Source of the DNA: Caldifarciminota bacterium
Lineage (GTDB): Bacteria; Hydrothermota; UBA3073
Length of the DNA stretch: 64,000 bases
Reading direction: 5' to 3'
NCBI GenBank assembly: GCA_023129165.1
Contig: JAGMCL010000060.1
Span: 1-64,000 of the forward strand
This document shows positions 3,270 through 33,268 of this stretch, in pieces (positions within the stretch are counted from its first letter, which is position 1; the number at the start of each line of letters is the position of its first letter). A model generated the notes under the pieces. That model ran no database searches, had not been told where the DNA came from, and saw only the letters and a program-made list of their open reading frames with translations. A program made the translations under genes and the position numbers.

Positions 3270-3754
3270 GAGAAATTAATCAGGGAAAGACCCAAAAAAT
3301 ACTCTCAGTATACAATAGAAAAAAACAGGGTGATGGGTTTATAACAAGAAAATTATTCAAGAATAATACCTTTATAGGATATGAAATTGTGAGATTATCG
3401 ACAGAAAAATCAGTTCCCTTTGCATACATGAGAGATTACGCACCCTCTGAATGGGATGAGATTTATAAATATGGTCCTTACACCTTTTCAAGGAAAGCAT
3501 TTACCTTCGCAGAAAATATAGTTGATGAAATAATAAAAAAAAGAATTAACCCCATCTTTATTGATGAAGTTGGACCACTTGAACTTCAAGGAAAGGGATT
3601 TTTCAGGACTCTAAAAGAAGTCTTAAACACCGAAAAAGATATATACATAACTGTGAGAGACCATTGTGTTGATGAAGTTATTAAAAAATTTAATATTAGA
3701 AAATATGATGTAATAAAATTAAAAAATTCCAACAAAGGAGAAATTCGTGATTAA
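3251..3754 (+). CDS. THEP1-like nucleoside-triphosphatase
   Basis: P-loop GEINQGKTQ, IFIDEVGPLEL Walker B-like motif. Confidence 0.75.
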   Translation: MVCLIIGEINQGKTQKILSVYNRKKQGDGFITRKLFKNNTFIGYEIVRLSTEKSVPFAYMRDYAPSEWDEIYKYGPYTFSRKAFTFAENIVDEIIKKRINPIFIDEVGPLELQGKGFFRTLKEVLNTEKDIYITVRDHCVDEVIKKFNIRKYDVIKLKNSNKGEIRD

Positions 3755-6791: not shown

Positions 6792-9059
6792 ATGAAGTTA
6801 TTTGTAGTCCTTTTATGTCTCTCTATTATAAGCGGCTCAGTCCAGGGAAGGAATATCACAACGCTTGAGGGTAAAGAGATGAGATGCGTTAGGGACGAAT
6901 CTGTTGCACCCTCCTTTGAAAGAAGGGAAGTAGTCTCTATTACTAAGCTAATGTTAGGTTACGAGCTAAAAGACAGTATAGATTGGATTTATTCAGATTC
7001 CCTCTTCTTACATTGCGTAATTCCATCAGGTGGAAGAGCCATCTTCGCTATAGATACAGGAACTGATACCATTGAAATAGTTGAAGTACATGAATCCCTA
7101 CCAGATTCAATATTGGATGCAATAGATTATGCACCTTTGTGGTTAAGAGACGACCTTGTTGACAACTTCGCAAAACTTCCTGCTGACACTCAGGGTATCT
7201 ATGCAAATATCATCTTGAATGCTCCAGCAGCCTGGGTGGATGAGGTTGCATATCAAGTAGCACATGTTGGTCCTGAGATTCTCTCTGACACCTCCTTTGC
7301 CCCCGAACTTGTGACTGTTAATGCTGAGTATCTTTACAAAAACGATTCCCTCCTGCGTTATGTTGATATTATTGATTATGGAGCACCAGGCGATGATAAT
7401 TACTACTCGACAGTAAGATACAGAGCACTTGAGAATGGGGATACTATTTATTATGAATTACCCCCTGGATATTATTATATGTACATTGTCCACCCTGAGG
7501 TATCTGATGAATCGCCAAGGATGGATTCCTATGTCTATAACAGGTTCTGGAGGGATTACCTCTTCTATGCCGCTGATTCTGGCTATCCTGTTCTATCTGA
7601 GAAACTCACGGGAGTTAAAATTATATGGGATGTTACTGATACAGCTCAGGTCTATCCTGCTGGAAGACCCTTTGATTCTACATGTTGTGCCCTTGACATC
7701 ATTGGTAATTGGGGTTCTGAGACTGTTCCACAGGCAGCAATGGGTAATAGACCCATTCAACCAAATGTAATAGCCCATGAGCACAATGGAAACTGCGGTG
7801 AGACTCAGGATGTTCTTCAGGCATCAGCAAGAGCCGCTCTTATTCCTGCTGTCGCCACTATGAATATTGCAGAAGACCATGTATGGTGCGAGTTCTATTA
7901 CAAAGGATGGCATGAATACCAGATTGACCTGGGACATGGAGTAACCCATATCAACGATTTTAGAACCAGTTATGACAGGGATATGACAGGAAGTCCTGGT
8001 GGTAAGGAGATCTCCTCTGTATGGAATTGGAGGTCGGATGGATTTGCCTGGACAGTTAGTGAAAAATATTCAAAATCATGTTCCCTTATAGTGCATGTTT
8101 ATGACCTCAATGGACACCCTGTTGATGGTGCCAGACTTTTGATCTATGCAGATAGCTCACCCTGGGGTGGAGGACTAACCACCTGGGGATTTACAGATGC
8201 TAATGGAAGGTGTGATTTTAGCCTTGGAAACAGGAGGGATTTCTACATACATATCTCCTCATCAATTGGTGATTATCCAGAGGGAGCAGATGAGATTGTA
8301 CAAATTATTTCTGGTTCACAGGATGGTGCTTCCTATTATAAGACCTTTTATCTCCCTGGTTCCATTCAATCTCCAGATGTGAGACTCATCACCCCTTCTG
8401 GTAGTGAATATGCCCGCAAACTCGACATCGGTATAAATGCTCCTTCTCTATTCGAACATGGTTATGCACGAGCCCGCAGAAAGACCCTGGACCCTGCACC
8501 TTTTTACCATACATACTCAGATAAAAAAACTCCTGGAAATATCGACTTCTTCGTCTGTGATGAGACAAATTACCTGAGCTACCTTGCAGGTGATGAATTT
8601 GAATCACCTGTAATAGGAGAAAATATCACTGATGAAGATATTTCATTTATTACACCTCAACTTGGTAGGTGGTATCTTGCAGTATCAAACGAGGATAAAA
8701 TTACAACTTCTAAAAGTATAAATATCTCACTCAGACTCTATAAGAACCCGGAATTCGGCATAGCTGAAGAGGAGCTCGCCTTTGGTTTCAACTTGAAGAG
8801 TATAGCACCAAATCCGTTTATGAAATCCACAACCATAAAATACGAAATCCCCTCTACATTAAAAACCAATATAGGTGTCTATGATATCTCAGGCAGACTG
8901 ATAAAAACCCTTATTAATGTATCTCAGAAACCAGGAAATTACACAGTCACCTGGGATTGCAAGGACGTGAAAGGTAGAATGGTGCCATCGGGTATCTACT
9001 TTGCAAGGCTTATGGCAGAGGGGTATAAGTCAACAAAGCGAATGGTGCTAATGAAATAA
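6792..9059 (+). CDS. Secreted transglutaminase-like protein with C-terminal T9SS/FlgD-like sorting domain
   Basis: Signal peptide; GNCGETQDVLQASARAALIPA...EDHVWCEFYYKGWHEYQIDLGHG Cys/His core; NPFMKSTTIKYEIP...GIYFARLMAEGYKSTKRMVLMK. Confidence 0.8.
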   Translation: MKLFVVLLCLSIISGSVQGRNITTLEGKEMRCVRDESVAPSFERREVVSITKLMLGYELKDSIDWIYSDSLFLHCVIPSGGRAIFAIDTGTDTIEIVEVHESLPDSILDAIDYAPLWLRDDLVDNFAKLPADTQGIYANIILNAPAAWVDEVAYQVAHVGPEILSDTSFAPELVTVNAEYLYKNDSLLRYVDIIDYGAPGDDNYYSTVRYRALENGDTIYYELPPGYYYMYIVHPEVSDESPRMDSYVYNRFWRDYLFYAADSGYPVLSEKLTGVKIIWDVTDTAQVYPAGRPFDSTCCALDIIGNWGSETVPQAAMGNRPIQPNVIAHEHNGNCGETQDVLQASARAALIPAVATMNIAEDHVWCEFYYKGWHEYQIDLGHGVTHINDFRTSYDRDMTGSPGGKEISSVWNWRSDGFAWTVSEKYSKSCSLIVHVYDLNGHPVDGARLLIYADSSPWGGGLTTWGFTDANGRCDFSLGNRRDFYIHISSSIGDYPEGADEIVQIISGSQDGASYYKTFYLPGSIQSPDVRLITPSGSEYARKLDIGINAPSLFEHGYARARRKTLDPAPFYHTYSDKKTPGNIDFFVCDETNYLSYLAGDEFESPVIGENITDEDISFITPQLGRWYLAVSNEDKITTSKSINISLRLYKNPEFGIAEEELAFGFNLKSIAPNPFMKSTTIKYEIPSTLKTNIGVYDISGRLIKTLINVSQKPGNYTVTWDCKDVKGRMVPSGIYFARLMAEGYKSTKRMVLMK

Positions 9060-26938: not shown

Positions 26939-27222
26939 ATTTTATAAATTTACACTAAGTTTATCTATTTAGAAGTTTGTTAACTAAGGATGAACAACAG
27001 TGAAGGAATAAGAGTTGGAGAACCATAATCCAATTATCTATATGCAGTTTATAATTCTTAGTTCATTGAAGCCACTCTTATTTCTGGCTGGAATGCGATG
27101 TGGAGTATTACAACTATCGGAGCAATCTCGAGGTATTATTCTATCACTACAATTCAGATGTATGTATATTTATTATAATTCAAAATGTGCTAAAAGTCAA
27201 GAAAAAAGATAAAAAACTATCT

Positions 27223-27396
27223 GGGGTCAGGCTAAAAGATAAGAGATAACTGCTTGGCATAAAGGGAAAGTTATAGTAGTTTTGTAATATGCTTAGAAAA
27301 CTGAGGATAGAATATGAAGGAGTTTTTTTGTTATGTGATATCTCGTGGTAAAAGGAGTGAGTTTATATTCTATCTCTTATCTCTTAGCCTGACCCC
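27223..27396. mobile_element. MITE-like GGGGTCAGG element, family 2 copy 1 (174 bp)
   Basis: GGGGTCAGGCTAAaAGATAAGAGATA...TATCTCTTATCTCTTAGCCTGACCCC; same length as the copy at 33085-33258. Confidence 0.87.
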
Positions 27397-27666
27397 CATT
27401 TCCCCTCCCAATTTAACATCCATTTAGTTTGTTGAAGCAAAGCGTAAATCCGTTCACGTCATATTCGGATCCCGCAGAAGGCGGGACATTTGAAGGAAGG
27501 TAGAGAAAGAGATTGTGAGGGTGTAGTATTGCTGAACTTCTTTATCTAAAGGTTTCAGGTAACCCTATCGGTGTATATGAAGTGCAAAGCATTTTTCATT
27601 TTACATATGCACCGTGTTATATGAAGTTCGGCAACATTCCTGTCTTTTTCTGTATTTATCTCCCTG

Positions 27667-28443
27667 TCATCTCATTACTATTACTTTCTCTGTTCTACTG
27701 AATTTACCAGATTCCAGTCTCACAAAGTAATGACCAGAGGTTACCTTCACTCCAGTATGGTTTGAGCCATCCCATCTAATAGTATAATTACCAGGCGTTA
27801 CCTCTTTGTTCACGAGTTCCTTTATCATCTCTCCAGCAATGTTGTATGTTCGCAAGCAAACTCTTCCCTTTCTTTTAATGCAATAGTCGATGACCACCCC
27901 ATAAGAAGCAGTTATAGTTGGCTTAATCTTGAGAATGCAGAACTCAGAGGTAGAGGGTGATATTTCAATACCTTGCGGAGAAGAGAGCTTGTAAATCTGC
28001 CAGTTATATGTCGCATCATACTTATCATACACAATCCAGTTTCCGTCAGGTGACCACTGGGGATTGCAATGGTGATAACCATCGTTGGTCAGGGCTATCT
28101 CTGTTCCACCTGCTGATGGAACCTTGTAAATCTGGTAGTGGCCTGTCGCATCATTCTTATAATACACAATCCAGCTTCCGTCAGGTGACCACTGGGGATT
28201 GTAATGGTTATAACCATCGTTGGTCAGAGCTATCTCTGTTCCACCTGATGATGGAACCTTGTAAATCTGGTCGTAGCCTGTCGCATCCAACTTCTGATAC
28301 ACAATCCAGTTTCCGTCAGGTGACCACTGGGGACAGTAATGAGCCCAATCATCGCTGGTCAGGGCTATTTCCTGTGCCCACAATGTGGACAGTAGAACCA
28401 TACAAGCGAGAATGGGGTAAAAAATCCTCCTATAGTTAATCAT
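27667..28443 (-). CDS. TolB/PD40-type beta-propeller secreted protein with sorting domain
   Basis: Three 45-aa units PQWSPDGNWIVYxKxDATGxxQIYKVPSxGGTEIALTNDG; GHYFVRLESGKFSRTEKVIVMR. Confidence 0.82.
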   Translation of the reverse strand: MINYRRIFYPILACMVLLSTLWAQEIALTSDDWAHYCPQWSPDGNWIVYQKLDATGYDQIYKVPSSGGTEIALTNDGYNHYNPQWSPDGSWIVYYKNDATGHYQIYKVPSAGGTEIALTNDGYHHCNPQWSPDGNWIVYDKYDATYNWQIYKLSSPQGIEISPSTSEFCILKIKPTITASYGVVIDYCIKRKGRVCLRTYNIAGEMIKELVNKEVTPGNYTIRWDGSNHTGVKVTSGHYFVRLESGKFSRTEKVIVMR

Positions 28444-28987: not shown

Positions 28988-29629
28988 CTATGCTAAATAT
29001 AGCTCAAGATTTTCCATTAAAACAAAATCTTTTCTAATTTCTATTGATTCACCTGACTCTACTCCAGTAAGTTTTGCTATAATGGTTCCTTTTCCATCTA
29101 AAGTAAATAGTTTTGGGATCAAGTGGAAACGAAAAACTTGATTTGGTTTAAGAACATATATATTGGTATGATCCCAAATCATTTTAGTGTCATTTTGTGG
29201 AAAAAATTTTGTTATCTCAACTAATCTCTTATGGTCGTTGCGATCTTTGTAGAGTATCTTTATATCTACATCTTTCGCAACCTCAGTACCTACATAGTGC
29301 ATTTCAACTGCATAGGATGGTGGATTTATGTAAGGATATATCAATAGCGAATGTTCATTGATTGCTGATATTTCCGAATGTTCATTGATTGCTGATATTT
29401 CTTTGTTTAGCTTTCTATAGAGGAAAAAATTCGCCAATAGGAATGATAGAAGAAATATTGTTCCACCAACCTGCCTAATTAGCATTACATCTCTGATTAA
29501 TTTCTCCGCTATATTTGGACAAAAGAAAAGGATTATCCCCAAAATGCTAAAGGATGTAAAAAGCCATTGTAAACCGCTTGCGAAAACGTTTATAAAATAT
29601 GACCAAAAATCAGAAAGGAAATCTTTCAT
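28988..29629 (-). CDS. Hypothetical membrane protein, two N-terminal TM segments
   Basis: Hydrophobic segments FSILGIILFFC and IFLLSFLLANFFLY; sits downstream of attC-like site 1. Confidence 0.55.
   Translation of the reverse strand: MKDFLSDFWSYFINVFASGLQWLFTSFSILGIILFFCPNIAEKLIRDVMLIRQVGGTIFLLSFLLANFFLYRKLNKEISAINEHSEISAINEHSLLIYPYINPPSYAVEMHYVGTEVAKDVDIKILYKDRNDHKRLVEITKFFPQNDTKMIWDHTNIYVLKPNQVFRFHLIPKLFTLDGKGTIIAKLTGVESGESIEIRKDFVLMENLELYLA
29348..29401. repeat. Perfect tandem duplication of 27 bp
   Basis: cgaatgttcattgattgctgatatttc x2, in frame, encoding EISAINEHS twice. Confidence 0.95.
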
Positions 29630-29686
29630 TGAATTTACCTTTTTAGAGTTGCGAGGTAATAACTACTCGGTTTCGGGATTTTTCCA

Positions 29687-29741
29687 CCTAACGTCTGAGC
29701 TAAATTGCGCTGAAAGTGTCAGGTTAAGCGATTTGTTATAT
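29687..29741 (-). mobile_element. Integron attC-like site 1
   Basis: Minus strand ATAACAAATCGCTTAACCTGACACTTTCAGCGCAATTTAGCTCAGACGTTAGGT; AAC...GTTAGGT (GTTRRRY) core and imperfect dyad. Confidence 0.65.
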
Positions 29742-30018
29742 TGTGAGGTGTTATAATAAGCAATCATTCCCGTAATCAAGGGGTAAATTATGACAGATAA
29801 AGATATGGTTCTAGTTGAGTAGCATGATACCACGTTTTTCTCCGTTACATACGACTAGGAAGCAATCCATGGACATAGGATGGCTTTTTTTCAGAAGTCT
29901 GGGCTATCTAATTGCAAGGGATAATGTTACTATAGCCATCGCTGCTGAACAGAATGACCAAAAGAAATACAGGGATATAACTCTGATTCCTAGTGGTTCA
30001 ATTATATCCATTAGTAAG

Positions 30019-30210
30019 CTAGTAGCCAGCCCTTCTATGGAGTTCGTCGTGCTCTTTTATTGTTAGCACTCTTAGGTTACGAGGATCGTTGTTATTTGTA
30101 TTACGATCTTTATGATGTATCTCCAAGTTGGTGATACGATGCACTCTGCCATCTTTGTCTGAACGACGCCTAATGATTGCCTCTTTCTGAGATGATGATA
30201 ATAGTGACAT
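30019..30210 (-). CDS. Small HNH endonuclease-domain protein
   Basis: LEIHHKDRNTNNNDPRNLRVLTIKEHDELH; RBS aggag upstream. Confidence 0.8.
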   Translation of the reverse strand: MSLLSSSQKEAIIRRRSDKDGRVHRITNLEIHHKDRNTNNNDPRNLRVLTIKEHDELHRRAGY

Positions 30211-30470
30211 TTCTAGTTACTCCTATTGTTATTATTCAGGCACTCGATTATAGCACTTAAATAGATAAATGCAATCCTTGTGCTTGTAAACAACTTCATA
30301 TTATTAGTTCACATTATAACATAGGTTTAGCTAATGATAAATTAAGAATTCGATCATACTTTTTCATTTTGTTGGACATTTTCCAAATTACAGTTTTGTG
30401 CCAAATAAATACCAGAAAAATAATTCCAAAACAAATATAATAAGGTGTTATAGCACCTCCTTTAGAATTT

Positions 30471-30541
30471 GCATAACGGAAAGCTCACCGACGCTATGGA
30501 GCGCCAGGGTAATAGCTGTCAGGTGTAGTGATTTGTTAGCT
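30471..30541 (-). mobile_element. Integron attC-like site 2
   Basis: Minus strand AGCTAACAAATCACTACACCTGACAG...GTCGGTGAGCTTTCCGTTATGC; begins 3 nt after the stop of 30544-31446; left half 19/22 identical to site 1. Confidence 0.7.
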
Positions 30542-30543
30542 AT

Positions 30544-31446
30544 TTATCTTTTAACAACAATTTGTTGAACACTTTGGATAAATGCTATACCGTTATGATT
30601 TTCTATTATTTTTATTGCATTAGTTGCTCCAAGAGTGTGAATACAAGCATGGTGGACTGAAAGCACCGCCTCTTGTAGTTTGGGATCATCTTCAAGTGGA
30701 ATAATGTTTAAGCCAATCTCCTTACATTTTTCTACTGATAAATGTCTAGCATGAGATTTAAGTAAAGCAAGATTGCCTAATTCTTCTATTATATTTTCTA
30801 TAAGGTTTTCTGCGTCTTTTTTTGTAGCAAGCATACCAGAAAGCAGCCATTCTTTAACCATTTCGTTTGACCAATCAATCGCTTTTTCGCATTCACCTAT
30901 GAGTGTTGGCGTATATTTTGCTATTATTGGTTGCCATACAGCGGCTTTTTTGGGGTCTGAGCAAATTTCTAAATACGCACGCTTGAATTCTTCAACTACA
31001 CCATGAGCAGGAATTCCTCTGAATTGAGGATCTATTGGTCCAAGACTAGATTGTTTACCCATGATTATCTCTTTGCAAGCACAAGCAATCATTGTTCCAG
31101 CTGACATTGCTAGTTGAGGTATAATAGCACGAATATTTGTCCCGAACATCGAATGAAGATAATCTACTATAGATTCCATTGCCGAGGTTTCCCCGCCAGG
31201 TGTATGTAAAAGTAAATCCAATCCCTTACTACGATTTAACCCATGAATAACTGTCATAAAGCCATTTTTGTCCGCATCATTTACGTGTATATTAGGGGCA
31301 TCTGGTTTTTGCAACCACCCTGAATAATAAATTATTACATTTCTCATAGTTACCTTCTGCAGTTTCTTTAGATATTTCCTGCGTATAATATCATGGGTGC
31401 TTCCCGCTCTACTTATTTCATGTAATATATTATGCCAATTAGGCAT
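30544..31446 (-). CDS. SDH-type ClpP/crotonase-fold serine protease-like protein
   Basis: LDLLLHTPGGETSAMESIVDYL, PQLAMSAGTMIACACKEIIMGKQSSLGPIDPQ (nucleophile MSAG). Confidence 0.82.
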   Translation of the reverse strand: MPNWHNILHEISRAGSTHDIIRRKYLKKLQKVTMRNVIIYYSGWLQKPDAPNIHVNDADKNGFMTVIHGLNRSKGLDLLLHTPGGETSAMESIVDYLHSMFGTNIRAIIPQLAMSAGTMIACACKEIIMGKQSSLGPIDPQFRGIPAHGVVEEFKRAYLEICSDPKKAAVWQPIIAKYTPTLIGECEKAIDWSNEMVKEWLLSGMLATKKDAENLIENIIEELGNLALLKSHARHLSVEKCKEIGLNIIPLEDDPKLQEAVLSVHHACIHTLGATNAIKIIENHNGIAFIQSVQQIVVKR

Positions 31447-31615
31447 TTCCTCCTCCTTTTATAGCGTGAGTACTAATATCCAATCTAATAAATATTTGCT
31501 TTTTTTCTGTTGCTTCTAATTCTTTCTCTTCTAATTTTAAAAATTTTTCACGTTTTTTCTCTGTTCCCAAACCTATTTCTGTGAACATTTTTTTTAATTC
31601 TTTCTTTGATCGCAT
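31439..31615 (-). CDS. 58-aa charged small protein, translationally coupled to the SDH-type protease
   Basis: ATG after AGGAGGATAAATA; MRSKKELKKMFTEIGLGTEKKREKFLKLEEKELEATEKKQIFIRLDISTHAIKGGGNA; its stop overlaps the protease start (ATGCCTAA). Below the ORF-track length cutoff. Confidence 0.65.
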   Translation of the reverse strand: MRSKKELKKMFTEIGLGTEKKREKFLKLEEKELEATEKKQIFIRLDISTHAIKGGGNA

Positions 31616-31902
31616 TTATTTATCCTCCTAATTTCATTAATAAATTTTCATATAACATAGGTTTATTTGTGCTAATAAATTAACAATCATGGCTAATCTT
31701 AACTGTATAAATCCTCTCTTACTTATTCTTTTTACTTAATCATTCTCTTAATTTGTTGGTAATTACATCATACTGGAAAAACACCAACTTGTCAAGTTTT
31801 TTCTGTTGACTCTAACATCCTAAAGTTTGGTCCTCCTGCCAGATTGGTACTATCTGTGTAAGAAGGTATAAGTAAGCATGCTCTCGTATAAACGAAATTT
31901 CC

Positions 31903-33084: not shown

Positions 33085-33258
33085 GGGGTCAGGCTAAGAG
33101 ATAAGAGATAATTACTTGACATAAAGAGAAAGTTATGGTAGTTTTGTAATATGCTTAGAAAACTGAGGATAGAATATGAAGGAGTTTTTTTGTTATGTGA
33201 TATCTCGTGGTAAAAGGAGTGAGTTTATATTCTATCTCTTATCTCTTAGCCTGACCCC
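33085..33258. mobile_element. MITE-like GGGGTCAGG element, family 2 copy 2 (174 bp)
   Basis: 26-bp perfect TIR; about 6 mismatches to 27223-27396. Confidence 0.88.
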
Positions 33259-33268
33259 CATTTTTTCC

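Follow-up and report, generated by a model that had tools for sequence, protein, structure and literature searches.

An integrase-less gene cassette array that seems to occupy one of about 12 dispersed attI-like sites in a Caldifarciminota genome

Integrons are modelled as one intI gene, one attI site and one array, and attG sites, at which cassettes enter away from intI, are assorted genomic sequences. The attI site is typically single and close to the integrase gene, and IntegronFinder overlooks attI sites other than those of class 1 (IntegronFinder 2.0, PMC9024848). The locus described here lies on the minus strand of a 64,000-nucleotide stretch of the genome of a Caldifarciminota bacterium, the whole of which we call the window; its segment from 31.80 to 29.69 kb is in all likelihood (we would put it at about 0.8) a small cassette array situated at one of the dispersed copies of an attI-like element, with integron-type entry of the cassettes and no integrase gene. 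Such a locus resembles a CALIN, in which two or more attC sites of the same orientation surround short genes and intI is lacking from the vicinity (IntegronFinder 2.0, PMC9024848). Here, however, the array starts from an attI-like element that lies downstream of a promoter-like sequence and has many other copies in the genome. It also resembles a sedentary chromosomal integron, in which promoter, attI-like core, cassettes and attC follow each other in the same usual order and exchange takes place at G^TT; there, however, attI and promoter stand beside intI, whereas here the attI-like copies are many per genome and none of them is beside intI. Parts of attI are known to travel inside cassette arrays in the Delta-attI-type cassettes of class 1 and class 2 integrons, yet there they arise rarely, as by-products in integrons that possess intI (PMC12901181), while here the full 55-bp element is repeated across the genome and the genus and in several families. 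Archaeal integrons and CALINs recovered from MAGs are likewise mostly integrase-less attC clusters of uncultured lineages, but the putative attI there is immediately downstream of intI (PMC9668308), which is not the case here. Unlike attG, the target is one conserved sequence common to 14 genomes. A search of the open-access literature gave no description of a dispersed multi-copy attI.

The array would be organized, in order, as promoter, attI-like site, cassette 1, attC 1, cassette 2 and attC 2, and its parts are the following:

31767 to 31795, minus strand: promoter-like sequence TTGACA-17-TATGAT, 11 of 12 consensus positions, tied with one other as the best of the region
31650 to 31710, minus strand: attI-like element (also called the leader below), 55 bp at 31710-31656 ending in G, plus R box GTTATAT (31656-31650); putative crossover G31656^T31655, G^TT boundaries being seen at another copy
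30477 to 31655, minus strand: putative cassette 1, 1179 bp, with the 58-aa ORF, the SDH/ClpP-like protease and attC 1; limits inferred from the G^TT of the attI-like element and that of attC 1
31439 to 31615, minus strand: 58-aa ORF (ORF only), overlapping the protease start by 8 nt
30544 to 31446, minus strand: SDH/ClpP-like serine protease, 300 aa (PF01972, E=2e-20)
30471 to 30541, minus strand: attC 1, with R'' AGCTAAC, L'' ACTACACC (extrahelical A), L' GGTGAGC and R' GTTATGC (30477-30471)
29692 to 30476, minus strand: putative cassette 2, 785 bp, with the HNH gene and attC 2; limits inferred from the G^TT of attC 1 and that of attC 2
30315 to 30349, minus strand: possible partial attI-like element 5' of the HNH gene, 81% over 35 nt (E=0.014 on the genome)
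30019 to 30210, minus strand: HNH nuclease, 63 aa (PF13392 HNH_3, E=7.7e-7, exceeding the gathering score)
29686 to 29741, minus strand: attC 2, with R'' ATATAAC, L'' GCTTAACC (extrahelical T), L' ATTTAGC and R' GTTAGGT (29692-29686)
28988 to 29629, minus strand: 213-aa membrane protein, downstream of attC 2

The initial annotation of this DNA had proposed two attC-like sites bracketing an HNH cassette in an integrase-less array. Both sites are indeed present on the minus strand, 730 bp apart, with left halves identical at 19 of 22 positions, the first one starting 3 nt past the stop of the protease; the coordinates given for attC 1 are right and the end of attC 2 was off by one base, since its R' box runs to 29686. 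The four flanking ORFs (58 aa, protease, HNH_3 and 213 aa) do point in the same direction. Cuts at the G^TT of both attC sites are predicted to release 30476-29692, 785 bp (about 784 bp in the initial annotation); the HNH gene, however, makes up one of two cassettes, since the protease is a cassette too. This had been overlooked, as had the promoter-like sequence and attI-like element at 31.65-31.80 kb and the dispersed repeat that heads cassette loci: we are dealing with cassettes without an integrase gene that were apparently inserted at one of about 12 promoter-linked docking sites. No third attC was found behind the membrane protein when the 64-kb window was searched with a covariance model (see below), a Pfam search gave no match for the 58-aa ORF, and Rfam gave no match at gathering thresholds in the window and chance-level matches only in the array region. 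The partial element at 30315-30349 is weak and may be due to chance. Promoter consensus matches in this region are, as a class, not above shuffles, and a consensus match by itself is no evidence of function. Between attC 1 and the HNH gene lies an open frame (30470-30320, minus strand; ITPYYICFGIIFLVFIWHKTVIWKMSNKMKKYDRILNLSLAKPML followed by a stop) that lacks a standard start codon and may encode a small membrane peptide; a small terminator-like hairpin adjoins it at 30459-30442.

A hand-written attC descriptor, which recovers seven known class 1 attC sites, does not set the two window sites apart from background: they score 11.9 and 11.8, and controls reach 13.2. This descriptor yields so many false positives in AT-rich DNA that we replaced it by a covariance model, calibrated and trained on 14 attC sites from which both window sites were excluded: four of plasmid-borne class 1 integrons, two of other phyla, and eight located on other contigs, either of this genome or of the sister species. 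In the attC alignment, 97% of the L-arm cells are paired, two-sided changes occur in 9 of 12 L-arm pairs and the covariation score was reached by none of 500 shuffles. Within the 64-kb window the model ranks attC 2 first (35.8 bits, E=3.2e-6) and attC 1 second (19.2 bits, E=0.052). Both sites carry AAC and GTT at their R''/R' ends and an L''/L' arm with an extrahelical base, the extra base being at L'' position 4 as in the aadA1 attC; the L' arm of attC 2 (ATTTAGC) has lost two L-arm pairs. Folding of the bottom strand, a check proposed from the outset, bears out the first site and not the second: attC 1 adopts a canonical attC hairpin with L-arm bulges, with a z-score of only -1.5, and attC 2 folds weakly, no better than shuffles, and may be less active. 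By score alone attC 1 is borderline, and no good match to it was found in plasmids; we nevertheless accepted it because of its fold, its position 3 nt from the protease stop, its pairing with site 2 and the occurrence of an attC behind the same gene in two other phyla. Both window sites are genuine attC, and the 19.2 bits of attC 1 and the shuffle-like fold of attC 2 are to be counted against our main reading.

Searching the 3.0-Mb genome with the same model yields 14 attC matches on contigs C7, C142, C28, C89, C36 and C111, several of which were training sites, those on C28, C89, C36 and C111 being independent of the training. About 12 sites in one orientation form an array on C7 (L014, 2910-13854, minus strand), whose cassette genes include Fic, HNH_5, Mrr-like and PIN-like proteins, and ahead of three of these cassettes the 55-bp element stands immediately after an attC. 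At the scale of the phylum, attC matches at E<=0.001 occur in 25 of 148 genomes. An exact match to the left-half pattern at C133:31093 proved not to be attC. A low covariance score and a lack of attC elsewhere in the genome, which had been named beforehand as signs that the proposal was wrong, did not come true, given ranks 1 and 2 in the window and 14 matches in the genome. These results bear on the simplest alternative, namely a vertically inherited locus that carries two inverted-repeat-like sequences by chance. It would account for the failure of the simple descriptor to separate the sites from background and for the fold of attC 2, but because of the model ranks, the further attC and leader copies in the genome, the lack of the protease in the sister species and the exchange boundaries at G^TT on C36 and C11 (both below), we judge it refuted and leave it practically no chance.

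The closest relatives of the protease are found in other phyla, with 79% identity in an Actinomycetes MAG and 75% in a Desulfobulbaceae MAG, and at E<=1e-30 the gene is present in 5 of 148 genomes of the phylum, including this one, and absent from 143, with no match in the sister species at this threshold. In a Planctomycetaceae MAG (L051) the protease gene is flanked by one attC before (2399-2458) and another after it (3599-3658), and in the Desulfobulbaceae MAG (L044) an attC (1920-1981) follows it. The same gene thus stands with attC in unrelated genomes, as expected of a gene cassette, and this distribution indicates that the protease cargo was acquired horizontally. The CALIN originally proposed is strengthened by the independent covariance model, by the additional attC and by the horizontal protease, and it was incomplete in that the attI-like element had been missed.

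The copy of the 55-bp element in the window (31710-31656, minus strand) is 94% identical to the element query over 62 bp, and its 25-bp core has two mismatches, zero such occurrences being expected by chance in the window. The element search gives 14 matches in this genome, 11 of them strong (10-14 copies), and 11 copies in the sister species; by BLAST the element is found in 12 of 81 genomes, and the 25-bp core with <=3 mismatches occurs 47 times in 14 of the 148 genomes of the phylum, against none for the reversed-pattern control. It was not found in plasmid and viral collections. Across 33 copies, conservation jumps at -55, peaks over TTATTAGTACAGATAAAC and ends after ...CCTATG^TT, beyond which the next four bases only fit RRRY, so that the consensus reads GATAAACCTATG^TTRRRY. 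The element has the form of an attI core, with a G^TTRRRY end and an adjacent inverted AAC box, and the published minimal attI cores, AAACAAAGTTRRRY for attI1 and AATAAAATGTTRRRY for attI2 (PMC12901181), resemble GATAAACCTATGTTRRRY. Many copies have TTGACA...TATAAT immediately upstream. We read the element, from its sequence and its distribution, as a putative dispersed multi-copy attI with no integrase beside any copy.

Is the element connected with cassettes? Leader, gene and attC follow each other in this order on C40, C142, C28, C36 and C111 of this genome; leader-gene-attC or leader-gene-attC-gene-attC recurs on C11 and C49 of the sister species, and separate attC and leader searches give the same order in four other genomes (G002, G012, G024 and G037). 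A model-detected attC lies <=2.5 kb downstream on the same strand of 17 of 33 leaders, as compared with 0 of 33 in the opposite direction and 15% for random points in the same loci. Downstream of about half of the leaders no attC was detected, partly because the covariance model loses long sites. Likewise, attC is found in 11 of the 14 core-bearing genomes versus 14 of the 134 others (Fisher P=9e-8, a value that ignores relatedness).

The most direct evidence for cassette entry at the element comes from one orthologous pair of contigs (C36 here, C11 in the sister species), which share the leader and both flanks and carry entirely different cassettes. Their left flanks agree through ...ACAGATAAACCTATGTTA and then diverge, and identity restarts exactly at CGTTATCTGACTATGG, which in each contig is the R' box of its last attC. 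The exchanged segment is thus bounded by G^TT on both sides, identity stopping at that of the leader and resuming at that of the last attC. The C36 cassette (L097) consists of a gene for a 385-aa 4Fe-4S protein and an attC (8992-9051), and the C11 insert (L124) of three other genes, another leader and three attC, the last of which is weak (17.6 bits). A genome of another family also has the C36 cassette (94% over 1240 bp) behind a leader, and there the sequence further upstream is unrelated. Clean breakpoints are restricted to this pair; entry at G^TT is seen at this copy and not at the window copy, which presumably worked likewise.

One may object that the locus is an ordinary CALIN, in which the attC sites are real and the 55-bp element is no more than a promoter or 5'-UTR leader that is conserved and travels with horizontally moved genes. 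The place of the element, downstream of promoter-like sequences where a 5' UTR would be, and the half of the copies without a detected attC behind them are in keeping with this explanation, but it does not predict that conservation should end at G^TT and continue with RRRY as in the R box of attI and attC, nor that two species should have a common leader up to G^TT followed by cassettes that differ between them and stop at the crossover base of attC. We consider it improbable.

If the element is an attI, an integron-type recombinase would join the folded bottom strand of an attC to the G^TT that ends the 55-bp element, and the newest gene would land behind the promoter, presumed active, in a transcript whose 5' leader or 5' UTR is the attI element. 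Many copies of the element head a short array of their own, and this attI would be neither unique nor next to intI. As cassettes with a leader at their 5' end can occur (on C7), an attI-led cassette inserting elsewhere could plant a new attI, and it is tempting to propose that the element spread as the 5' part of such cassettes, which would explain both its dispersion and the sharp boundary at -55; the base before the element, which is not G in many copies, counts against this proposal.

The enzyme involved presumably acts, or acted in the past, in trans. The statement that no IntI-type integrase lies in the window proved right, and none scores over the TIGR02249 cut-off (265 bits; 508.6 bits for IntI1, scored as control with the same profile) in the window, in the genome (a MAG about 94% complete) or in the 148 genomes of the phylum, the recombinase inside the window being XerC-like. 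No complete integron, understood as an intI gene with the IntI-specific patch region, was found in the 148 genomes. There is, on the other hand, a family of IntI-like recombinases that score 165-225 bits with TIGR02249 and are devoid of the patch region; among the matches listed, they accompany the leader in 9 of 12 genomes as against 6 of 69 (P=3e-6, from a count by eye that ignores relatedness). No convincing leader and no linked attC were found in the recombinase loci examined, and no element copy was found to adjoin an intI gene. Moreover, the I2 helix is presented as the innovation through which integron integrases acquired single-strand recombination (PMC7790495), and a patch-less attC recombinase would for this reason be surprising. 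The IntI-like patch-less recombinases are thus only candidates, and an IntI that was lost, left unassembled or external is at least as likely as a patch-less enzyme. The full scheme of a distributed integron, with many promoter-attI platforms per genome, seeded by attI-ORF-attC units and served in trans by a patch-less IntI-like tyrosine recombinase, is accordingly put forward as a tentative and rather unlikely extension.

The lack of an IntI over the cut-off in 148 genomes may also be taken to mean that a transient integrase from another cell inserted the cassettes at attG, the repeat being then a favoured attG family and not a dedicated attI. Insertion at attG is an established integrase activity according to work cited in PMC12901181, but the target here is one conserved 55-bp sequence with an attI-like core in 14 genomes and not an assortment of sites, and we hold this explanation to be very improbable. 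As for the candidates themselves, the copy on C31 of this genome (L003/L017) and that on C9 of the sister species (G001, L129) are syntenic; both have an NPAPSRCG insertion after the first catalytic-domain motif, and our copy has an in-frame deletion of about 20 residues compared with that of the sister.

Returning to the reading of the window locus as an array at a dispersed attI-like site, if such platforms are real, a genome with about 12 promoter-attI sites, none of them adjoining an intI gene, could take up many cassettes and express them in parallel. Current software would score such a genome as scattered CALINs or miss the platforms, because attI outside class 1 escapes IntegronFinder (PMC9024848). 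The nature of CALINs, as degraded integrons or as platforms served in trans, becomes directly testable, and the patch-less recombinase candidate could be used to test how IntI acquired single-strand attC recombination.

Finally, comparison with the sister species brought a few other features to light. A second orthologous stretch with leaders, conserved flanks and different gene content links C28 of this genome (L095, 9042-11300) with G001 C11 (L124, 14597-17760), with breakpoints less clean than on C36. The window locus is rearranged in the sister species, with a contig end at the expected place. An interspersed repeat of about 180 bp (…TTATCTCTTAGCCTGACCCC), present in the window at 27222-27402 and 33166-33263, has many copies in the sister genome, one of which abuts the contig end where the cassette locus would be. 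At 27986-28380 of the window, an internally repeated PD40/beta-propeller gene aligns with a locus of the sister species in several registers, which suggests a change in repeat number.
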